From positions 248,001 to 312,000 of the forward strand of contig OX421966.1 in the NCBI GenBank assembly GCA_949128115.1: a stretch of DNA of 64,000 bases. The letters are read 5' to 3'. Below are positions 15,709 to 47,990 of this stretch, in pieces; position 1 is the stretch's first letter; every line of letters begins with the position of its first letter. The notes below the pieces were generated by a model that was not told the origin of the DNA, searched no databases, and saw nothing but the letters and a program-made list of their open reading frames with translations. The stretch comes from Anaspis maculata (lineage: Eukaryota > Arthropoda > Insecta > Coleoptera > Scraptiidae). A program made the position numbers and the translations under genes.

Positions 15709-17235
15709 TTAACCGATCAAGGAGATCACAGCCCTAGTCAGCGGCGTTGCTCCACTTATACCATTGCTGAATATAAAAGTGTCAGGGTCTCGTCCAAATG
15801 GATCATTCTCTTCCACATCATCGCTCACCAGGAGCGAAGCACATGATTCTCTGGAAAAATCAATAAAGTTAGGTATACTTGTTGATGGCGGATTATGCAG
15901 AAGAAGAAAAATCTTACTTGCTGGGTAAGTACGATAGAAGAGCTTCGATGATGAAATACTCCATATAGTCAGAAATTCTGTTGAAACGGTTCATGTCCCC
16001 GCAAGCTTCGTCCTGAGCCACGCTCGCCAAACCAAGAACGTAATGTCTACCATCTCTTGGATTTTTGACTACGAGCCCGTTGCCTTCATCTCCAGTGCAA
16101 ATTCTTTTGCTTTCTGAAAGTTTACATTGGACGGGTAGGTAGCCGAAAATTTTATGAACATTTCAAATAAGTTCCAAGGAGTATACCGTCTCTGGGATAT
16201 CCAACGCAGATGTTTTTCATGCCCAAGAGAGACGTTGTGTTATCCCCTTTGAGCTGGCATTTTTCCATTGACACGGTTTTCACTTTCACCACTTTGACTT
16301 CTCTGGATAGCTCTACGTTATCCTTTGGATTGCTTGAATTGAATTTGTTGTCACCCCATCCGACTACCTGGCACCATAAAAATATATCTCGGTGAAATTC
16401 TGCTGTTTGATTTGATTCTGATTCAAAACTCACCAAGCCTTCAAGCTGCCGTTCTGCCAGTTCGCTGAGGTGATCAAGACACGCCGGTTGAACATTTTCG
16501 GTCATTTCCACGCATTTGTTCGTAACCAGCACGGCGATGTTTCCCAAAAAGTACTTGTAATCCTTTCCGCTGAGGGTTTGCGGAATCCTCGCTTTTTTCA
16601 ACTGATTGGCGAACAAAAATAAAATTACCAGTTTGAAACACGAATTCACTCTGAAAATCAACCTTAAAAATTTGAATAGTAGAAGCATCCCTGGTGTCGT
16701 TGAAATCGACGTAGTTGTTTCCAACGGCAACCGTGTATTTTTCAAGACGCGATTTGTCAGATTCAATGTCGGAAACGCAAGCATACTCTGAGGAAGCATT
16801 TGTAGAATATAAAAAATCAACAAAAAAAAAACAATCAAACCTGTCAGGATGATTCTTTCGCTTATCAAAACGCCACCGCAGATAAACTTGGGAGATGCAC
16901 CGTCAGCTTCTTTGTAAATCGCCACTTTCCATGGATGAGCAGTTTCGTCGCCTTTTCCACATTCTTCAAACATTTATTTGTTACTTTAGATGTTGAATGC
17001 ATTTGAAAAAAATGTTGTTCACCTTGATTACAGTTTACAGTGGACCAGTTACCATGGGAGCAAACGCTGAACGCCTTTTTTTTGTCGAGTACGCTTGTGT
17101 CTCCTCCACCAATGTTTGTGTCACACTCTACCGTAGCTATAGTACCGTCAGTGGCTGTACTACAATTGGTTGGTGCCCAAGTATTTGTTCCTCCTCTCTC
17201 GCATCTATATACGGTATCCAGCGGAGGACATAGTC
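15709..17235 (-). other. Second module of copy B: Wonton-like domain plus dead S1 domain
   Basis: Seven exons (17023-17235 to 15709-15850). The first encodes a six-Cys CCP-like domain (LCPPLDTVYRC... ending NWSTVNCNQ) related to the Wonton exon of the first module. The S1 part keeps the fold landmarks FICGG, VVGWG and the C-x-GD-GN loop, and exon lengths parallel the active module (125-nt exon around the His site in both). The usual R-IVGG activation region is missing: the domain begins CGKGDETAHPWKVAIY. All three catalytic residues are replaced. It therefore cannot be a zymogen or a protease. It has no signal peptide of its own, which favours being part of the same transcript as the upstream module. 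If the terminal intron is retained, translation stops at the TAA overlapping the donor (15915-15917). Confidence 0.75.
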
Positions 17236-20200
17236 CTGAAATTTCAAGTTTGAAATCAACTTTATCGGATGTAAGTTTCAGAAAAGAATTGATTTGATGT
17301 AGATGATCAAATTTCCTGCAAGCCTGCAAGCTAGATATTGCAGGTTGGACAATACCGTGAGCCAATACTGAAGAATTTTAAAAAACTCATGATTATCAGG
17401 AAAATGAATCAAGATTGATTGTTGGGGGGTGTCAGGTGTCAGGGTATTGACCGTAAGCTCATTCCAAAATACAGAAGAGCAACAATGAACGTTGATAGCA
17501 CTATAAGGTATCGGAGGAACGAACATTAGAGCCTCGATCAGAGCCAGGTCTACCGTTTCAATCAACTTTGAACTTCAAGGTCAAGATGAAAACTCTCGGG
17601 CGAATCGAAAACGAAGGATTACTAGAAATGTAATATTCGCGTGAGCGCCATAGCGACATTCGAAATCCTCCAATAAGAGGTTCCAAAGCATGGTCCAGGC
17701 AGAATAATGAAGGCGTGTTTCCCAGAATTTTCCCCGTGTACTTGACTATTCATTGATTCCTCCAAGCTCTTCTTCTACAAGTTCAAGTTTCTCAAGTAAC
17801 GAGTATATTCGCCAAAGACGGAACTGTCAGAAGATTTATAATATAAACTGCCGGCAAAGAAATAGGTGATATAGGATCTTCGCCAATGAATCGGAATACT
17901 TCAATTTTTTGGCATAGGTAGTGCCGAAGCTTTTCCTTTATCCGGGAAACTTGATTCAAATTTTTAATTGTCTCATCGGCTATTGTGTAGAGATGATTGT
18001 GAATGATTCCATTTTAATCAAGGATCTTATTGTATGAAAGACTCTCTTACTTAAACACGTCGGGACTTCTCCTGACCACTTTCCAGCCATGCAAATGTGC
18101 AAGCTATCTCCAGACAACTTGTAACCGTCATTGCATTTGTATTCCAATGGCGCACCCGATCTCGTCCGATTTTCTGATGTGAACCACCTGGCTGAAATTT
18201 CCCATGTCCCATTGGCAAGTTGTGGAGGAGGTCCGCAAGTAGCTTCCCTGTGAATAGAGAACTAAACAGATTACATAACTGGAAACAGTAAAAACATGAG
18301 TTACAAAACTTCTGGTGAGGCTGTTGTCGTTGTGGATACAGTCGTAGTCCCATGAGGAGTTGTATTTGGTTTGGACGTTGGCGGAGGTTCTATATAGATA
18401 GATTTCATAATTAAACTTCGGTTAGACTGACAAATTGTTTGTTGATCTTCAAAATTATGTACTCACGAGGAACAGAGCTTTGATACTCGGCCGTTTTCTC
18501 TCGGATGAAATCGATGTAAGAATACACTTCAGTGAAAAGCGAATACAATTGACTGTTGCACCTGGCTCCAAACTCGACATCCGGCGAAACACTGACGATT
18601 CCAGTCAAGTAGTATCTGTTGTCGAAACTGCTCTTGAACACCAACGCACCTCCACTGTCGCCAGCACAAACTCCTTTACCTTATTTGAAAATGTCTTTAT
18701 TATTTATCTTGTTATTTGGATGTTTTTTATTCTCTCTTTGTTAGTATAGGTGGGCTGTTCCGTTCACTTACTTTGGTTCACATATCCCAAGCAAAGCTTG
18801 TCTTCAGTCAAATATCCTTGGTCGAGTTCGGAAATGGCTTTGGCGCAGACCTCGTTCGTCACGTAGGGCAGTTCGATTTCTTGGAGCTCGTCCACAATGG
18901 CACCCGTTTCGGAGACAACACCCCATCCTGAAACCTTTCGAAGAAAAGCATTGGAAAGCCCCAAAATATGGCGCAACACAGAGCACTAGTTCATACATAG
19001 CCGATGTTTGAGGGCGTCAGGAATTGGCTCCTGTAAATTTTGTTCCAGTCCATGCAAATCGGTTGGAGTAGGTCATTGAACTTGAACGGTTCTTCCATGA
19101 TGAGGATTGCCAAGTCGCCGTAGAAATTTTGGGAAGTTCCTTTGTATCTCTTGGGCACCAGCACTTCCTTTATCTGTTGAAGTAATTTGGAATTGCAAAA
19201 ACAAAATTATTTACGGAACCTTTCAATATAAATAATAAATGTAACAACAGAGAATGGGGCAGTTGGTTATCACGGGTATCATTCAACAGTATAAAACTCA
19301 CTTGCCTTGTTTGGCTGAAAATCTTCTGAATCCCTTTTGTCAGTCCAGTTTTGGTAATACTTGCCACCGGCTATTCTGAATTTTTCTATAGGCTGTACGT
19401 TTCCATAATTGTCAGCTACGCAATGGGCGGCTGGAAATTGTGATTTTTTTCTTTCAAATAAGCCCGATTCATAGCAGACGTAAGCGTAATGAACAGAGAC
19501 AAGCCAGACTAATGAATATGGACCAATCACTATCATCAATATGCACCTTGGCTTTTTCGAATTCACCGTGTGATTGGTTCATTCTCTCACGCTTGCGTCC
19601 TCGTTTGCGCCTCCGTCGAGGCTTTCGTCGACTTTTTCAAACAGCAAATATTGAGGTTCATTGAAACACGTTGATCGTTCCCTAACATTCATGTGAAAAC
19701 CCGATACTGATTTTTGTGCGCTTATTTACTGGATTTAAACGGATGAGGTGTGATAGGCTGAACTTTTATTCATCTATGCTGAGGATTTTCTGGATATTAT
19801 TTCAACTGGATAGTGATTAGTTCTATTTGCTTAGGCATAGGCCCACGCCTCGGGCCACGCCATCAAAATCGTGTTTTGTAATTTTGCACAACACCCCATT
19901 ATCATCGGTATTTGGAGACACAAGTTGTATATTATAAATATTCATACCTACCTGTTATAACTACTCTTTCGTTGATCATAGAGCCACCACAAGAAAAGCT
20001 TGACTCATCTTTTTCTTTGTCATAGTTGTAGATTGCCACTTGCCACGGGTAGCTGCCCTTCTTTGCCGTTTTGCCCTGAACCGATAGGGTAGCACCCGTC
20101 AAGGATTTCAATCCGCAATCTGCAATAATTTTCCGTGAAAAAAAATCAGCCTCAAAAACTGCATTTTGAGGTCATCTCAAGAATTCCGGGGCTCATACTT

Positions 20201-22533
20201 GGATTGCAATTCGGCCTGTCCGCGATCCATTTTCCGGCCTTGCACTTGCTCAACCCTGATCCTCCGCTGAGGAAGCTTTCCGTAGAATTTTCCACCGTTA
20301 TCGTGTAGTGTTCCGCGCACTCGAATTGAGCCACGGTTCCGTTGGTTGCTTCTGAGCACTTCACGTGGGCGATGTCACCCGTCGACTCATCTTTTAATCT
20401 GCAAGTCACTTTGACCTTGTCAGTTTCGGTCAGTTCTGGACACGTTTCTGTAAAAAGTATATCGTTACAAGACAGGTTGTTTTAGGCTCTCGGCGATTCC
20501 GGTCGAGTAACAGGTATTTTCCAGATGGTCGTTCTGAAACGTTAGAGGAAACTGGAAATTACGCAAATGAGCCACAGCCTGTCATCTGCCAGCTCGTTAT
20601 TCAGTCTACAAGTTACTTTTATCTTGTCAGTTTTTGTCGCGGATCTTGTCAGTTCCGAACATTTTTTTGTAATAACAAAAATTTCCATTGTTTAGTGAAT
20701 TCGACAGCTTAAATGAAACGTTCGAGACAGAAAAATAAACGTCGGAAGCGTTCAAAAGTTACAATAAAAATACGGCCAGATGTTGCGCATTCCGTTCCGT
20801 TTCTTTCCGAACGTTTTTATCAAAATCAAATACAAAACGGTCATTTTCCAACCAGAAACTGACTGAAGGTTCCTCAAGCACTGTTTCATCATCAACAGTG
20901 CCAGTTAAACCTGAAAAAATCAGGTTGTGTCACCTCAAAACTTTCCCGACTAGTATCCAAGAACATATGGAAGTTTTTTCTCGAAACATCCCTTCGGGTG
21001 GGAAGTTGAAATTGGAGAAAAAGATTGAGAATTATTTGTAGGAGAGTAAGAATTTTGTCAGGGAAACTTAAGGGAAACTTAAACTTCTCGGGGAAACCTA
21101 GAATATTTCTCCCAATCACCTTATTGTGAAAGTTCTAAATCAAGGCTTCATTTTGAGCCCCATCATCTAAGTCTGGTCCCGATAACCCAGGTCGGTTTCA
21201 CACTTTCGACAGGAAAATTCCCGGGAAATTGGAAAAAAATGTTCCAAAATGTTCAAGACCCATGCAGTTACCTATCCTTAAAATGTATATATTTGGCAAG
21301 ATATCAAAACTTTGTTTCTGCACGATCACGGTAGGTACTTTCCCTTCCATGTTGGTGGAGGGCCAAAAAGTGGAAAGAAACGTTGAAATACAAATTTCTA
21401 ACGTTTATATATTGAAGTACAGTTGTTGTACACGGTTTTTAAACATCAATTTGACAGACCCGTGCTTACCAAGTATACGATAAAAATTTATCATGGAAGA
21501 ATACTCACTTAAACAGTGCCCCATTTTGATTTGCCATTGAAACTGTTCTCCAACACACAACCCCACATTACTGCCCCAAAGCTTGTAGCCTTCATTACAG
21601 GTCACGAAAAGCCCACTTCCGGCTGAAACCGTGTCGCCTGGTGAAGGAACGGGGGTCAATCCAGGCACTTGCCATTTTCCATTTGCTGGATGCTGAGGGA
21701 GTTTACATCTGATGGCAGTACAAAAAATATCATTTATTTGGAATATCATCACCAGATGGAATGTTATACAACTTGAACTTTACAATGACAGTACTGAATT
21801 ATGTTTAAAATGGCAAGATATTTGTCGAACTCAAAGTGATTTCTCTATTATACCTATACACAAGAATCATAACAACACAGGATGTTTGCAAATCGGGGTA
21901 GAAAATTGAACCTCAGTGATGATAATGCTCTGAAAGTGCCAGAAAAATGATCAAAAAAATGTATGACTTTTATTCTTGGAAATAAGCATGGAGGGTCAAA
22001 AGGTTCTTCGACCACTTTTATTCTCGTTTTTTTGAAAATTCCTATCAGTAAACTCTGTTGCCTTGACTTCAGCATTTCCGTAACTGCAGTTAATTTGCTA
22101 TCCCAAGTTTGCAATCACCCTGTATACATTTTTTCGCACACCCATATTTCCAATTTCATGAGTTTGTTGGTCGTTATTGTAATTGCTCCATAATCCACTT
22201 TTTATCTACGTGATTTCTATCTACAAATACACTACTTGAGATAGCTGTTTTTAAAATGTGCTTAAGTTGGATTAGCTCTTTATGTAAAAGCCGAGATAAA
22301 AGCATTGATCTTTTCATAATTTTCGGATTCATTTCTAGCGAGCAATAGTGGTGAAATGGAAAGAGGAATTACATAATCTGCTGATAATAACACGCAATAA
22401 CTTTCACTTGTGAACATTGCTTACCCTGAGGTTAGGGACGATTGGTTTCCAACTGGAAATCACATTTAAGTTCATCATTATTCAGCTGAATACCATACTT
22501 ACAAATACACAGTAAAATAATGAAAACTAACAT
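15709..22533 (-). CDS. Double-module serine protease (copy B): active S1 module plus inactive S1 module
   Basis: Complete 927-residue model. Exons in transcription order: 22503-22533, 22425-22452, 21509-21708, 20199-20447, 19952-20119, 19306-19430, 18997-19173, 18772-18934, 18467-18679, 18305-18389, 18051-18247, 17023-17235, 16841-16963, 16663-16787, 16434-16601, 16187-16367, 15918-16113, 15709-15850. All phases agree. Order: signal peptide (MLVFIILLCIF), sushi 20-86, Wonton-like 87-169, S1 domain 170-451 with intact His228/Asp287/Ser389, Thr-rich linker 452-480, sushi 480-545, Wonton-like 546-616, second S1 domain from 617. In the second domain His is Ala660 (EYAC), Asp is Asn720 (GNIAVLV) and Ser is Glu825 (GDEGN). 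The last exon adds a 46-residue tail with no recognised domain. The first eleven exons are near-identical to copy A. The join of exons 11 and 12 rests on matching phase and orientation; the region could instead be two genes. The first module resembles HP14/MSP initiators, without their LDLa repeats. Confidence 0.8.
20525..20680 (-). pseudogene. Relic of a duplicated Wonton exon (copy B intron)
   Basis: Counterpart of the copy A relic at 8585-8725, about 80 bp upstream (in transcription) of the functional Wonton exon. It contains a second short internal duplication (CTTGTCAGTT occurs twice, about 20630 and 20648) not present in A. No open frame is kept. Confidence 0.5.
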
Positions 22534-26548: not shown

Positions 26549-27244
26549 TTATTGGTGCAATTTCTTTGATCCGTTGTTTTGTTGTTGCGTTATATTGACT
26601 GGTATGTACGTAGCAAGACAATCCAAAACTTTTGGCCAAATCTCATCAGAACTGCGACCTTGAAACTCCCGCAGTACACCAACCTTCCGATAAAAATCGA
26701 CGACAGGTTGTGCAAGCTTCCTGTACTGCTTCAACCTCTCCAAAACGACCTCGGGCCTGTCGTCATCTCTCTGCACCAAATCTTCGCCGGTAACGTCGTC
26801 TTTGCCAGGCACTTTCGGAGCATTGAAGTCGGTGTTGTACACCCGGCCGCTCGGCAAATGAATCCAGCGACCTCTGACCCTCTCGATGATAACTTCGAAC
26901 GGCACGTCCAAGTTGATGGCGACGTCCACCGGTTGGATTTCCCACAGTTTCTGCGCCTGCGCCAGAGTCCTCGGATATCCATCCAGCAACCAGGAACGGT
27001 TGCCTACCTGACGAATTTCGTCCGCGATGAACTTGATCATGACGTGGTCGGGCACCAGTTTGCCGACTTTTACATATCCGTCGGCTTCCCTGCCTATGGC
27101 GGTTCCATTCTTGATGTTTATTCGCAACTTGTCTCCGCTGGAAATGTGCTGAAGATTGAAGGTGTTCACGATGCGCGACGAAATCGTGCCTTTGCCGGAT
27201 GCGGGAGGCCCCAGGATCACAGACTTGAACGGCTTCGTTGCCAT
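26549..27244 (-). CDS. AK3: Adenylate kinase 3 (GTP:AMP phosphotransferase), intronless
   Basis: A 231-residue nucleoside monophosphate kinase that transfers phosphate from GTP to AMP, a mitochondrial-matrix role in the AK3 family. The P-loop GPPASGKGT is near residue 12; the AMP-binding region has SSGDKLR and LLDGYPRT; the LID follows GRWIHLPSGRVYN and contains DDVTGEDLVQRDDDRPE. The LID lacks the four zinc Cys of bacterial enzymes, as usual in animal AK3. Length fits the family. The start at MATKPFKS matches the usual N-terminus; the same frame is open to an ATG at 27325 (a Gly-rich leader MQGGGGGIM), which is probably 5' UTR. The absence of introns in a window of intron-rich genes suggests a retrocopy or intron loss, but no poly(A) tract or target duplication was seen. 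The frame is intact, so it is probably functional. Confidence 0.93.
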   Translation of the reverse strand: MATKPFKSVILGPPASGKGTISSRIVNTFNLQHISSGDKLRINIKNGTAIGREADGYVKVGKLVPDHVMIKFIADEIRQVGNRSWLLDGYPRTLAQAQKLWEIQPVDVAINLDVPFEVIIERVRGRWIHLPSGRVYNTDFNAPKVPGKDDVTGEDLVQRDDDRPEVVLERLKQYRKLAQPVVDFYRKVGVLREFQGRSSDEIWPKVLDCLATYIPVNITQQQNNGSKKLHQ

Positions 27245-27785
27245 TTCGATTGTATTCGACTTTTGAGCTGTTGAATAAATAGTCTGGATGTTAATCGTCA
27301 TAATACCACCACCACCACCTTGCATTCAATGATCAAGAGGTGCCGTTTGGTACGAATGTTCACGTACCCATGATTTGATTCTAAGAGGTGTCGCGAAGAA
27401 TGCAGCCGGGCAGATGCCGTATGCAGAGTGATCAAAAATGCAAATGCTTCAACTCATGATCCAAAAAAGTTGGAGTCATGAAAATCGAAATTCAGGATGT
27501 AAATTCAGAATTACAATTCAATCCTTATTATAATAATCCAGGCGTACAAATAGCTCCCAATTGAAAAAAAAATCACTGAATTAATCTTTCAGTGAAGTTG
27601 TTGTTGAGCATGGAAATCCCGTTTGCAAAAAGCACGTGACGGTATACTCACGTTATGTTTTTTTTTTCAAGGCGACTAGAGTATCCGATCGCATTTTTGA
27701 ATCATGAACATAGATCGGTGAATACCTAATTCATCAGACCAAAATGCCAATGGATGAAACAGAACCAAGTTAGGTGGGTACATAC

Positions 27786-33565: not shown

Positions 33566-35259
33566 CTATAATGGCCAGACGATATCTTCAATCCACTTGA
33601 TGTATCCAGAAACTCTGGTAAAAACGTCAGGACTTCCGCCGATTCCGCACGCCCTTCCAAACGATATTATCCCCACAACGTCGTACATGCATTGCACTTC
33701 CCCATCGTCATGATGATATATTTGTAGTGGCCCACCGCCCTGTAAAAATGCAAATGCCGTTCAATCAAAGCAATCGGGCATCAGGTGCTGAATCAGCATT
33801 ACTTGACAAAGACCCGTTCCTACACCACTGACTTTGGCGCAAACTTGAATTTCTCCCGCAATTCCGTTCTCCAACTTCCTGCCGATTTGGCTGCGATACG
33901 ACTGGTTGCAGCTGTTCTGATCGACGAATTCCAGACGGTGTTTGTGAAGGTCGTCGCTTCTTTCACCGGCATAGCTCGTCTTGCCCCAACCGGTAGCTAT
34001 TGCACGACTGGTGGGGATTTGAAATTCGGTGAAGAGACACGCCGGTCTGGCGAAAGAGTTCAATTCGGCTTGCGTTTCCAGCTTCAATAGACCAATGTCG
34101 TTGTAATACGATGTGGGCTTGTAGTCGGGATGACGTATGCGTTTTGCTATGTTGAATTTTTGGGTGTTGCTGTTGTTTTCGTTGAGGTCCGTCATGCCGA
34201 TTCTTACGTATTTGCTATCGCCACTGAAACAGTATTGCTTTTGTATGGAAAGATATGAAATTCGTGAAATTCGTTTTACTATTCTCTAGTTGTTAGGCAG
34301 TAAGCAGTCGTCATGACGTACGATTCGCTTATCAGGGATCCTCCACATAGCCATTTTATATCATCTTGTTCATATTCAAATCCGATTATTGCCTGAAATG
34401 TTGTAGTCATTATAGTAAAGATGTAACAAAATATTGGTCAACGAACGAACGTAGTATAATAATTGCTATTGCTAAAAAAGATGCAGCTAGCTGAATCGAG
34501 CTCCAGCGAGTGTTGTAAAGCACTCAAATGAGTAATTTACACTACACAAGAGTGGAATACGATGCTTCATTCAACTGATAAAAGTATATTTTTACAATTT
34601 ACCATATGTGGAAACTCTTTTTTTCTGGCTTTTCCAGCCCATATCAACGACGGATATACAAATTCACATTCACTTTTTGTGGTTTCTAGATCTTCACCGC
34701 TGTACAAAACTGGCTGTACTTTTTGTTGGTATGCATATTTGCTGTATTCCTTGCATTCTGAAAAAAAAAATAATTCAGAGTTTCTGAAAAAAAAAAACGA
34801 CTTTCTTATACACACTTGCTTTACTGATTTGTCCAGGTACACGCTGTTGGGATTGTGAAGCAGCGGGAACAGGACAGCACACAATCGGTTCTGTACCTTG
34901 GAATCCACAAATTTGAGGGGGCTTGGACCCTTTCACATTCCTTAAAGCTTGTAGGGCATTGGGGCATTTGTTCAGTATCTTACATTCGCCTGGTGATCCG
35001 CTTGATTCAATTGTGCATTTATCTCCTGTAAGGAAACATTACATGATCTTCTCACATCACATTCTGGTATTATTTTATTATACTGCGGCTATGCAACTTC
35101 AGTAGGTACTGTTAGATTGCAGTTAGTAAATTAAACAGATCAAAATGAGAATAGTCCCGGTCAAACTCAGATGAAACTAAAAGAATTCAGATAGCTACCT
35201 ATGGCTGAGTTAGCTGCGACAGAGCTGATCAAAACAAATAACAACAATGAATTGAACAT
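33566..35259 (-). CDS. Clip-domain serine protease homologue (catalytically dead)
   Basis: Secreted clip-domain S1 pseudo-protease, 377 residues; relatives act as cofactors in prophenoloxidase activation. Exons in transcription order: 35199-35259, 34816-35025, 34603-34757, 34280-34392, 33803-34223, 33566-33739; phases agree throughout. Signal peptide MFNSLLLFVLISSVAANS. Clip domain about residues 24-71 with six Cys in the standard pattern, ending ICGFQGTEPIVCC. S1 domain: the activation region reads SLIWAGKARKKEFPHM instead of IVGG; the His site is TAYC (His to Tyr173); Asp222 is kept (YYNDIGLL); the Ser loop is CQGGGPLQ (C319-L325) where active relatives have CQGDSGGPL, so two residues are deleted and no Ser remains. 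The 63-nt intron before the last exon holds no alternative supplying them. The C-terminus is canonical (SPDVFTRVSGYIKWI). Its exon 1 has a duplicate at 27786-27843. Confidence 0.88.
34450..34560. repeat. Short repeat shared with 4620-4765
   Basis: GCAGCTAGCTGAATCGAGCT...GTTGTAAAGCACTCAAATGAGTAA matches GCAGTTTGCCGAAACGAGCC...GTCGTGAAGCATCCGAATGAGTGA near 4670-4725 at about 70%. Both lie in protease introns and are bordered by TATAATA-rich sequence. Family unknown. Confidence 0.4.
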
Positions 35260-36689: not shown

Positions 36690-37063
36690 AATGAAGAATA
36701 GAATAGTATAGAATAGAATAGAGTTTATTAATGCTTATTACATTTCAGCAGAGACGCAATTCGACAGATTCTTCAGAAGGAAAATGTTTTTTGACAGTCT
36801 AGCTGCCAGTACATCAACATGTCTTTCCCACCGCAGTCCCGAATCAAGACCAATGTTTTTTGAACTACTGGAATATTAGTGTCATTGACATATTTATGGA
36901 TTTTAAATGAGGAAGATACTGGAAGATCATTGATAAATATCAGAAAAATTGAAGGTCCAAGAATGGACCCTTGAGGGACACCCAGAGACTGAAGTTTCTT
37001 TGAGGACATAAGAACGTTGATTCGATCTAAAATTATTGTCGCACGAATCAACGTAGGAAACAA
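36690..37063 (-). pseudogene. Non-LTR retrotransposon fragment (reverse transcriptase)
   Basis: Minus-strand translation contains LGVPQGSILGPSIFLIFINDLP, a hallmark of LINE reverse transcriptases (shown only as the motif GVPQGSILGP...INDLP). The downstream catalytic block that should read YADD/FADD is YVNDT, so the enzyme would be dead. The frame breaks soon after. The fragment ends in a repetitive tail (TTCTATTCTATACTATTCTA on the minus strand), typical of a LINE 3' end, but only about 70 bp separate the RT piece from the tail, so most of the element has been deleted. Confidence 0.75.
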
Positions 37064-37209
37064 CGTTATAAATTGATGACTGAATGAAACGTTATAAATT
37101 ATGATGAGAACAGCTTCAAAACAACGTTTATGTCGTTCATATCAACTTCAAAAATAACTTCGCACGCAACGTTACTATAAACGTTTCAACAAAACGTTGA
37201 AACAACATT

Positions 37210-44170: not shown

Positions 44171-44598
44171 AAGTAGTTTTTTTTCGACAGTTTTTATACA
44201 ATTATTTTGGTGAATGGGCTGTTGAGAAACAATTTCCGAATGTTGTTGGAACGTCGCTTTTGGCCTTCAGCTTGAGCTCATCCACCTAGTCGCCGGAAAA
44301 AATTTGTAGTAACACAACAGATTTTCTTTTGGACAAATAAAGTTTTCCCACAGTTTCTTTGTTTCCAGTTTATTCATGATCGTCCCATTGGTCCAGGTTT
44401 GAATTCCTATACAACTAGCTAAAGTTTGATTGGAGATTTATCTATCTTCTTAACACGTTCACTGCTACGCTGGTCTCATGCTAGGGTCCCATGGGACTAG
44501 CAGGAGATTTTATTTTTTTCAAGTTCATAGCAGGTTTTGAGATGACAACGTCGAGAGACGAAAATGTCAGAGTGGTGCGTCAGTTTTCACTCAGAGAA

Positions 44599-47500
44599 AT
44601 GTCGCGTTTTCATTTTTTATCGCCGAATCTCAGTGCTTTTCTAACAACGCTCCTGTTCGTTCTCTTGAGTTTCAATTCTTCGTCATCGGCACCGCCAGAA
44701 GCCCGAATCGTCGGCGGTACCCAGTGTTTCGTAGACGAGCACCCCTTCATCGTGTTGATTGTGTTTCGACAACGGAAAGACTGGAAACAAGTCGGCGGTA
44801 CTCTGATACATCCGAAATGGGTCCTGTCCATAGCCATAAACTGGCTCATCTTCCTCAAGAGCGGGTTCGATCCAGTTGAAATCCGGGCGGGCTCGTCCGT
44901 AGTAGAGCGAGACACTCCCACAGACCATCGTCCGGGCGAAGAGCTCCAAGTCCGTCGCTTATCCAACGTGTATTTCCATGACTCGGATGTGAGGTCGTTA
45001 TCAATCCACGATATCGCACTGATCGAACTCGATGACGCGTTCGACTTGAACGACGGCGTCGGTTTGGCGGAACTGCCGCAACCGCAGTCGGGTCCTGACC
45101 AGTTTTGTCCCGAAACGCTCATGATGGGTTGGGGAGGAACTGAAGTCGTGGACTCTGTCCAAGTTCAAGCGTCAAGTTATTCCCACAGCAAGTGGCTGCA
45201 GTGCTTGGAATTGTCCATGGTGGCCGCTTCGTTTTGTGAGTCGTCTTCGAACATCGTGGACGAGATACTGTGCGCCAAGTTCGATGAGAAAGGCATAGGC
45301 AAGTGCATGGGAGATAACGGAGGACCGATTGTGTGCACGGATCAACCCAACGTTGTGATTGGGATAGTGAAACAAGGTGACTGACTTGGACAGTTTCTCG
45401 TAACATAACATTTCATAGAGTATCCAAGTGGCAATCCTGTAAGTAAACCGTTTGAATTTTAAGCCACCGTTGGAAATTAAATTTTAACTGACTACTCCCA
45501 GCTTCCGCGAGGCATAACGGAATTGGATTGAATTATTAGCCCAGGCATTTTAGATCAAAATTGACCAAAACCTGGAAAAAAATAACGTAAGTCTGAAAAT
45601 TGGTAGAACGCTCCCACTTCAACCCCTCAATCACATACTGAAAGTCCTAAAATATCCTATGTCCGCTTCATCGGTTTTTGGCGGCAAAACGGTGTAAGTG
45701 ACAATAATTTAGAGACTATCTATTAGAATACGCGATGAAGCTTCGATACAACTGAAAATTGCTGAAAGTGGTCTCCTCGGTCAGTTGAGCAACATATTGA
45801 GAGTCCTAAAAAATCCTTCAACAGCTTCATCGTTTTTTAGCGGCAGAAAGGTATAAGTGACATTGCTTTGCAAACTGATGATTAAATCACGCGTTGAAGT
45901 TTCAATACATCTGAAAATTGCTGAAAATGGTCTCCTCGGTCAGTTGAACAACATGTTGAAAGTACTAAGAAATCCTATGTTCGCTTCATTTTTTTTTCAG
46001 CGGCAAAAAGGTATAAGTGACATTGTTTTGAAAACTATTCAATTAAACACGCGTTCAAGTTTTAGTACAGCTGAAAATTGCCGAAAATGGTCTTCTCGGT
46101 CAGCTTAACAACATATTGAAAGTCCTAAAAAATACTATGTCCACTTCATCGGTTTTTGGCAGCAAAAAGGTTCAAGTGACATTATTTTGGAAACTATTTA
46201 TTAAAACATGAGTTGAAGTTTCAGCACAGCTGAAAGTTGCTGAAAAATAGTATCCTTTGTTAGTTGAATAACATACTGAAAGTTCTGAGAAATCCCATGC
46301 TCGCTTCATGTTTTTTGGCAGCAAAAATGTATAAGTGACATTATATTTATTAAAAACTATTTTTTTGGAATACGGGTTTAAGTTTCAGTACAGCTGAAAA
46401 TAGTCTTCTGTGTTAGTTGACTGTACTAGTCCGAGTAGACCATTTTTAGCAATTTTCAACTGTATTGCAGCTTCAACACATATTTTGAACAATAGTTTCA
46501 AGAAATGGTCTTATATCTTTTTGCCGCCAAAAGACAATGAAGCGGACATAGGATTTCTTGAGACTTTCAGTATGTTGTTCATATGATCGAGGAAACCAGT
46601 TCCAGCAATTTTCACATGAATTGGAACCTCAACGCCTACTTCAATAAATAATAGTTTCCAAAACAATGTCACTTATACCTTTTTTCCGCCAAAAAACAAT
46701 AAAGCGAACAGGGATTTCCCTAGTATTTTTAGTGTGCTGTTCAACTACTGACCAAGGAGACTATTTTCAGCAATTTTCAGCTGTGTCGAAACTTCAACCC
46801 GTATTTTAATAAATAGAAACAAAAAAAAAATTCACTTATACCTTTCTGCCGCCAGGAACTGATGAAACAGAAAGAAGATTTTTCAGGACTTTCAATATGT
46901 TTCTGAACTAATCAAGGAGACCATTTTCAGCAATTTTTAGCTGTATCGAAACTTGACCGCCTGTTTGATTGAACAGTTTCTAAAACAATGTCACTTACAA
47001 CTTTTTGCGGCCAAAAAACAATGAAGCGGATATAGGATTTCTTAGGACTTTAAGTATGCTGCTCAACTGACCAAGGAGACTTAATATTTTCACCTGTATC
47101 AAAACTTCAACCCGTATTTTATTAAATAGTAACAAAAAAAAAGTCACTTATACCTTTCTGCCGCCAAAAAACAATGAACCGGACATAGGATTTTTGACGA
47201 CTTCTGGTATGTTGTTCATCTGACGAAGGAGACCAGTTCTAGCAATTGTCAGCTCTACTGAAACTCCAACTCGTATTTTAATAAATAGTTTCCAAAATAT
47301 TGTCATTTGAACCTTTTTGCCGCCAAAAACCAATGAAGCGGAGAGAGGATCTTTTAGGACTTTCAATATGTTGTTCAACTGACCGAGAAGATCATTTTTG
47401 GGAGTTTTCAGCTGTATTGAAACTTCAACGCGTATTTTAATAAATAGTTTCTAAAATAATGTCACTTACACCTTTTTGCCGCCAAAAACCGATGAAGCGG

Positions 47501-47990
47501 ACATAGGATTTTTTAGGACTTTCAGTATGTGGTTGAGGGGTTGAAGTGGAAGCGTTCCACCAATTTTCAGACTTACGTTATTTTTTTCCAGGTCAAAACC
47601 TAAAATGCCTGGGCTATATGTTTGAGCAAGTGAAAACCGTTTTTGTTCTATATTGAACGCCGCGCCAACTTTAACATTCATCTCACTCTCGTTTTTTCTT
47701 TTGTATCAGCTGGACTTGGCGGTTGCGGCATGGGCAATTATTCTGTGTACACGAGAGTAGATGCGTACGTGGAGTGGATCCTCGAACATGTTCCAAATGA
47801 CGAAGTCAAGCAAAGAAAATTGGAAGATGGGGAGTACTACGAATTGGAGCTGAATGGTTCCGAGCAGGATCATGTAGCATATGTTTGGCTAGTTCTGTCA
47901 CTACTAATAAACGTCATTTTCTTCTATTCAAATCCTTTTATCTCGAGCCAGAGCTGCGATCCTTGGACCGGTCTGAATTATCTAAAATAG
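44599..47990 (+). CDS. S1 serine protease homologue with C-terminal hydrophobic segment
   Basis: Exons 44599-45376 and 47710-47990 (donor GTGACT, acceptor TTTGTATCAG, phase 1), 352 residues. I chose the ATG at 44599 because it begins a signal peptide (LSAFLTTLLFVLLSF); in-frame ATGs at 44491 and 44542 would add an unlikely leader. The mature S1 domain starts after Arg36 (R-IVGG). It is a pseudo-protease: where active enzymes have CGG...AAHC this protein has QVGG...IAIN, so the catalytic His is Ile80, and the two Cys of the conserved disulfide (42-58) are both lost (Val65, Asn81). The Asp is kept (HDIALIEL) and the Ser is Asn (CMGDNGGP). After the usual C-terminal helix (YVEWILEHV) come about 70 extra residues, including a hydrophobic stretch (YVWLVLSLLINVIFF) that could be a membrane anchor or GPI signal. 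The intron is almost filled by a 2.1-kb inverted repeat. A possible poly(A) signal is at 48252. Confidence 0.87.
45537..47616. mobile_element. 2.1-kb foldback/hairpin with internal tandem repeats, in the SPH intron
   Basis: The segment begins TAGCCCAGGCATTTTAG and ends with the exact inverse CTAAAATGCCTGGGCTA. The two arms (about 45537-46430 and 46430-47616) are inverted copies; the outer 150 bp pair closely, including AAAAATAACGTAAGTCTGAA and CACTTCAACCCCTCAA. Each arm is built of about five to six tandem copies of a 150-165 bp unit containing ATCCTATGTCCGCTTCATCG, TTTTGGCGGCAAAAAGGT and GAAGTTTC-ATAC-GCTGAAAATTGC. No coding region. TAT borders it on both sides and may be the target duplication. 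Confidence 0.82.

Follow-up and report, generated by a model that had tools for sequence, protein, structure and literature searches.

A 64,000-nucleotide stretch of the genome of the beetle Anaspis maculata (GCA_949128115.1, contig OX421966.1; C6:248001-312000 of the 758-Mb assembly of 50 contigs; hereafter, the window) contains on its minus strand, at 22533-15709, a gene for a predicted secreted protein in which two modular serine protease units follow each other in a single chain. The first unit has an intact catalytic triad, and the second has lost both the triad and most of its activation segment. The two-unit structure and the co-duplication of both units in 11 gene copies are read from the sequence, as are the dead second triad, the short activation segment, the retained cysteines, and the apparent constraint on the second unit. 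On this basis, the protein is, on balance, probably a P1-Leu protease related to the modular initiators MSP and HP14 that covalently carries an activation-locked dead copy of itself as a docking module. An initial annotation of the window had already proposed the joining of an active and a dead unit; the lost activation segment of the second unit and the gene family go beyond it.

Rebuilt from the sequence, the gene model comprises 18 exons encoding 927 amino acids and a stop codon, with a consistent reading phase at all 17 junctions. Sixteen introns are of the GT-AG type and intron 6 is GC-AG, its GC donor recurring in six other copies of the gene (B, C, D, F, H, and C5a, described below). 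The domains are arranged in the order leader, sushi, Wonton, S1, Thr/Pro linker, sushi, Wonton, S1, and C-terminal tail. Pfam models matched the sushi and S1 domains of both unit 1 (Sushi, E 3e-4; Trypsin, E 5e-39) and unit 2 (Sushi, E 3e-9; Trypsin, E 1e-23); the Wonton domains, to which no Pfam model was matched, were assigned by their cysteine pattern and by alignment to modular proteases. From the sushi domain to the end of S1, the two units align with 28% identity (E 2e-47). A hydrophobic N-terminus, judged by hydrophobicity and not by a signal-peptide predictor, is present in unit 1 only. The rebuild reproduced the in-phase, 18-exon, double sushi-Wonton-S1 model of the initial annotation, with its leader confined to the first module, and its pairing of a competent-looking with a dead unit stood as judged by residues. 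A chance or mis-assembled model was rejected, because the same gene structure recurs in the paralogues. The introns before exon 4 also hold relic-like partial copies of the Wonton exon on the minus strand, at 20667-20563 in the window gene and 8754-8620 in its neighbor (35 and 45 amino acids, respectively; about 49% identity; E 0.02 and 3e-4).

The window gene (copy A) belongs to a family of at least 11 copies, a lower bound set by scoring 49 of 342 candidates of a search of the beetle's own genome, followed by spliced modeling. Eight of the modeled copies (A–H) form an array on C6 at about 156-271 kb, and three are dispersed, at C5:1.49 Mb (C5a), C5:35.1 Mb (C5b), and C2:41.8 Mb (C2). All 11 copies have unit 2 downstream of unit 1 in the same orientation, and a putative third unit downstream in C2 brings the total to 12 downstream units. 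Copy B, a further complete two-unit gene reaching into the window (11002 to 1, minus strand), extends past its left edge to C6:246188 and is identical to copy A at 90% in unit 1 and 78% in unit 2. A, B, C, D, F, and H have a clearly recognizable leader, and the 5' and 3' ends are less sure in copies other than A. The linker encoded by exon 10 recurs in B, C, and D and is more diverged in the remaining copies. Copy G has a 16.3-kb intron ahead of the exon encoding Ser195.

In copy A, the triad positions read AAHC/GDLAI/GDSGG in unit 1 and EYAC/GNIAV/GDEGN in unit 2, so that His57, Asp102, and Ser195 are replaced by Ala, Asn, and Glu, respectively, in the alignment. Throughout the family, all three residues are intact in unit 1 (11/11), and Ser195 is absent from all 12 downstream units. 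Ser alone is lost from the second units of D, E, F, G, and C5b, His as well as Ser from those of B, C, H, and C5a, and all three residues from those of A and C2; the third unit of C2 retains His and Asp. The region from the first cysteine to the Pro-Trp motif contains both the activation cleavage site and the N-terminus formed by cleavage. It spans 23 residues in all 11 first units and has shrunk to 7-12 residues in each of the 12 downstream units. The predicted activation site of unit 1 is L|SV in every copy, with Leu preceding the would-be N-terminus. Unit 1 has 18 cysteine columns. Seventeen of these persist in 11 or all 12 of the downstream units, and the remaining one has probably just shifted in the alignment.

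The joining of the two halves, which the initial annotation had deduced, is strongly supported by the other copies, and we consider that the locus very probably is a single two-unit gene. In C2, the Ser195 exon, the linker, and the second sushi domain are fused into one exon that is open over 136 codons. In C5b, the three introns spanning the join measure 56, 53, and 56 nt, and in H they measure 45 (the minimum allowed by the aligner), 61, and 167 nt; a second promoter and leader would scarcely fit into introns this small. The intron before the second Wonton domain is similarly short in E (49 nt) and G (55 nt). The units also co-duplicate: separate trees of the 11 first units and the 11 second units share seven of eight splits, a value equaled in none of 20,000 label shuffles, and the mean synonymous divergence (dS) between copies is 0.44 for unit 1 and 0.47 for unit 2 (r 0.78; six of the 11 copies). 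The contrary reading, that an active protease ending at the linker is followed by a separate downstream homologue, either as a neighboring gene or as an alternative transcript, is very improbable. It could draw on the read-through of intron 10, which meets a stop directly after PEVL and would give a product of 480 amino acids, and on the length of intron 11 in A (815 nt) and B (3008 nt). However, a search for a separate start with a signal peptide just upstream of 17235 turned up nothing near exon 11 or 12 that could convincingly serve as a leader or start: in copy A, intron 11 offered five ATG...GT phase-1 candidates for an alternative first exon, the best of which reaches a 10-residue hydrophobicity of 1.8 compared with 3.7 in the true leader, and none of the five has G at donor position +5. 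Following this leader search and the inspection of read-through ends, a separate gene for the second half was not favored. The two-gene reading also sits poorly with the related polypeptidases of Tenebrio molitor, which are single open reading frames (ORFs) in transcripts (PMC11172050).

Evidence on whether unit 2 is maintained was obtained from the ratio of nonsynonymous to synonymous substitution rates (omega) among the six close copies (A, B, C, D, F, and H), the others being omitted as diverged or stop-bearing. By the NG86 method, unit 1 has an omega of 0.16-0.30 and unit 2 one of 0.30-0.69, and the bootstrap interval of unit 2 lies below 1 in 14 of the 15 pairs, in which the unit looks constrained. 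Several observations weigh against an active enzyme with a maintained second unit. Omega of unit 2 is about twice that of unit 1; the youngest pair, A-B, is exceptional, with a unit-2 omega of 0.69 and an interval of 0.47-1.07, so that drift is possible in this pair; and the YN00 estimates are higher (0.21-0.38 for unit 1 and 0.38-0.94 for unit 2, with 0.94 for A-B). The only in-frame stops in the models, one each, lie in S1 domain 1 of copies E (C6:206.8-220.5 kb) and C5a (C5:1.49-1.51 Mb, via an apparent frameshift), and some copies may therefore be pseudogenes or assembly errors. After cleavage of unit 1, Ser instead of Ile or Val at position 16 could weaken the activity, and transcription of the two-unit gene is inferred from the genome sequence.

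Another reading would make unit 2 a decaying relic without function, as might be suggested by its faster amino-acid change, up to the A-B values of 0.69 (NG86) and 0.94 (YN00), and by the stepwise loss of the triad (Ser195 throughout the 11 second units, His57 in six of them, namely A, B, C, H, C5a, and C2, and Asp102 in A and C2). Such decay is distinctly unlikely, given that the models keep all 12 downstream units open and place stops only in unit 1 of two copies, that omega intervals remain below 1 in 14 of 15 pairs, that the cysteines are preserved, and that unit 2 is present in all 11 modeled copies. A pseudogene second half was thus not favored on the basis of omega and open frames, with the A-B pair as the exception. 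The main rival to a docking role is that unit 2 acts as a brake in cis, a dominant-negative copy that would bind substrate or inhibitor and thereby limit unit 1. This was proposed for the closest published relatives by the authors of the Tenebrio study, after human polyserases (PMC11172050, section 2.7), and the preserved cysteine scaffold of unit 2 agrees with it; the altered residue-195 motif and the short activation segment, in contrast, suggest a substrate cleft unlike that of the active enzyme. We regard the brake as unlikely; the present evidence does not tell it from docking.

From the features above, we infer the cleavage and activity of unit 1, the fold of unit 2, and its docking role, which may be connected as follows. 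The gene product would be a secreted serine protease with two units, a sushi polypeptidase by type and a relative of the MSP/HP14 initiator. The zymogen of unit 1 would be cut at Leu|Ser-Val by a P1-Leu (chymo-elastase-like) protease, possibly by unit 1 itself, and since cleavage there would fall upstream of S1 domain 1, unit 2 would remain tethered to the active enzyme via the flexible Thr/Pro linker. Having lost most of its activation segment, unit 2 would not be activatable in the usual way and would stay a folded, zymogen-like scaffold. Its most likely use would be as a docking module in cis for a ligand, a partner, or a downstream zymogen, a role that, taken by itself, we hold to be quite possible. 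How serine protease homologues (SPHs) help active proteases is an unsettled question in insect immunity, mostly studied with separate proteins. Here, the enzyme and its dead partner would be one chain with a fixed 1:1 ratio, and the copies form a graded series within one genome, from the loss of Ser alone to the loss of all three residues. The single chain, the lost activation site, and the graded copies together would allow a direct test, by deletion or swap, of what the dead unit does.

Exons of the two-unit gene, copy A (positions in the window)
Feature	Position	Strand	Content
Exon 1	22503..22533	-	Start codon and hydrophobic leader MLVFIILLCIF; similar leader in B, C, D, F, H
Exon 2	22425..22452	-	Leader end (..GNQSSLTSG)
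Exon 3	21509..21708	-	Sushi domain 1 (PF00084)
Exon 4	20199..20447	-	Wonton domain 1, by alignment and cysteines
Exon 5	19952..20119	-	Predicted activation segment CGLKSLTGATL|SVQG and start of S1 domain 1
Exon 6	19306..19430	-	His57 of unit 1 (AAHC); GC-AG intron next
Exon 7	18997..19173	-	Asp102 of unit 1 (GDLAI)
Exon 8	18772..18934	-	Middle of S1 domain 1
Exon 9	18467..18679	-	Ser195 of unit 1 (GDSGG) and end of S1 domain 1
Exon 10	18305..18389	-	Thr/Pro-rich linker (PPPTSKPNTTPHGTTTVSTTTTASPEV)
Exon 11	18051..18247	-	Sushi domain 2 (Pfam)
Exon 12	17023..17235	-	Wonton domain 2, reached across the 815-nt intron
Exon 13	16841..16963	-	Start of S1 domain 2; shortened activation segment (CGKGDETAH)
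Exon 14	16663..16787	-	His57 replaced (EYAC)
Exon 15	16434..16601	-	Asp102 replaced (GNIAV)
Exon 16	16187..16367	-	Middle of S1 domain 2
Exon 17	15918..16113	-	Ser195 replaced (GDEGN) and end of S1 domain 2
Exon 18	15709..15850	-	C-terminal tail and stop codon

Two further S1 genes lie in the window. One at 33764-34392 on the minus strand (E 2e-21) shows a weak likeness to the two-unit family. The other, on the plus strand at 44485-45381 and perhaps extending to 47987, encodes another dead S1 protein (trypsin, E 1e-19) in which Ser195 is replaced (GDNGG) and AAHC is absent; its possible last exon, within 47634-47987, gave a weak trypsin match (E 0.04), and between these two exons, many diverged repeats of ~150 bases, seemingly in both orientations, were seen by eye at 45600-47540. 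The minus strand also contains an intronless adenylate kinase ORF at 26552-27325 (258 amino acids from stop to stop; PF00406, E 1.5e-42), perhaps a retrocopy, and a weak reverse-transcriptase fragment at 36776-37141 (PF00078, E 1e-4, under the curated cut-off). Across the assembly, the beetle telomere motif TCAGG gave 15,758 exact overlapping (TCAGG)6 matches, the first listed at C1:1018; according to the first 100 places listed, they form telomere-like blocks spaced by about 2250 bases close to the end of C1 (C1:1018-25752) and not one unbroken array.

Among known systems, the two-unit protein shares with MSP, HP14, and ModSP, initiators that autoactivate on recognition complexes and set off the Toll and proPO cascades, the sushi-Wonton-S1 order and the Leu before the activation site, found in the aligned MSPs of Aethina and Nymphalis and in all 11 first units, with the Wonton domain assigned by alignment only and the site predicted. 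MSPs are single units of this order with four to five LDLa repeats (PMC1761132), and Drosophila ModSP is a chymoelastase-like enzyme that prefers P1 Leu and autoactivates (PMC10732536). Unlike MSP, the window protein has two units, and the Pfam scan of the model found no LDLa repeat at its N-terminus or elsewhere. LDLa-containing candidates are located elsewhere in the genome (C2:45.37 Mb and C6:18.84-18.86 Mb), and the two-unit family therefore probably adds to the initiator without replacing it. Clip-domain SPHs are separate proteins that carry a clip domain and act in trans. The dead S1 domain of unit 2 resembles these cofactors, a likeness that would extend to the way of working only if unit 2 is a cofactor, whereas the dead unit here is tethered in cis and the Pfam scan found no clip domain in either half. 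Among the 60 of 241 structure matches of unit 2 that were listed, the sole such insect entry is PDB 2b9l (E 2e-15), which bears the name prophenoloxidase activating factor; we take it to be PPAF-II, a catalytically dead clip-domain SPH cofactor.

Closer relatives are found in beetles, which supply the six best database matches of the window protein (Tribolium, three of Zophobas, Henosepilachna, and Asbolus). The initial annotation had suggested a look for proteins with two Wonton/S1 units in related species, and such proteins are indeed predicted in Zophobas morio (P0004 and P0005) and Tribolium castaneum (TC031984, P0001), with two or three sushi-(Wonton-)S1 units, the first triad intact and triad losses in the later units, as here; P0004 and P0005 likewise have a Thr-rich linker between the units. 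They are 30-34% identical to the window protein, and their downstream activation segments are 20-23 residues long, unlike the 7-12 residues found here. A two-unit protein of the moth Tuta absoluta (P0007) does have a short segment (12 residues) before its second unit, but His, Asp, and Ser are kept there. A protein search with residues 480-927 listed 10 sushi or trypsin matches, with no beetle two-unit protein among them, a search with residues 18-200 gave nothing, and NCBIfam gave nothing useful for three relatives. In the AlphaFold model of Zophobas P0004 (a relative, not the window protein), the mean predicted local distance difference test score (pLDDT) is 73 and the predicted template modeling score 0.46; the second S1 domain has a pLDDT of mostly 55-90, low at 757-771, and the linker one below 50, and the arrangement of the units is not interpretable.

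A tree of 40 of the 41 units (the incomplete Heno_u2 being left out; groups named after the first tree) placed unit 1 and unit 2 of the window family together (95/91) and apart from the tenebrionid units (96/92). Approximately unbiased (AU) tests on these 40 rows gave p values of 0.005-0.009 for four alternative groupings, three with a shared tenebrionid origin and one joining the family's unit 2 to that of Tuta. The AU p values became 0.031 and 0.149 without five rows, and 0.23 and 0.25 without 11 rows, where holding the window family's two units together gave 0.43; the separation, weakened or removed in the smaller sets, is not firmly held. It is doubtful that the pairing of an active with an activation-locked dead copy arose independently of the tenebrionids and was amplified to at least 11 copies, the dead units diversifying into recognition or docking modules. 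If true, each protease of the array would resemble an initiator and contain a recognition or docking module that differs from those of the others.

The architecture itself, implied to be new by the initial annotation, has been published from Tenebrio transcripts as Sushi(2)-SP-Sushi(2)-SPH polypeptidases (SP, serine protease; PMC11172050, the only description found, most subscription journals being outside the coverage of the literature search). According to that paper, T. molitor has seven polypeptidase transcripts, four of which encode an active chymotrypsin-like first unit and a dead second unit, mostly with two Sushi domains before each; the others are a three-unit protein, a protein whose two units are both dead (pSerPH608), and, as the seventh, Nudel. 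Most share one clade with MSP. Five of them (pSerP448, pSerP900, pSerP333, pSerP382, and pSerP614) are secreted, single-ORF proteins like our gene model, usually with two Sushi domains per unit, the second of which we take as the Wonton module, and with an active chymotrypsin-like first unit followed by SPHs. Tribolium SP14, named in the same paper, was not found by a word search of PMC2375007, a guessed source. As in these proteins, multiple S1 units, each after sushi-type modules, are encoded in one ORF by the gene model, and an active protease precedes an SPH as far as the residues tell. The kind of protein is already known, because the Tenebrio transcripts and the Zophobas and Tribolium predictions agree in architecture. 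In all six secreted Tenebrio proteins, however, an L|I activation site is predicted ahead of every unit, whereas here unit 1 has L|SV and all 12 downstream units are without most of the activation segment (7-12 residues remaining), and at least 11 copies are present as compared with six secreted proteins there (PMC11172050). The Anaspis proteins differ in the shortened downstream activation segment and the larger family.

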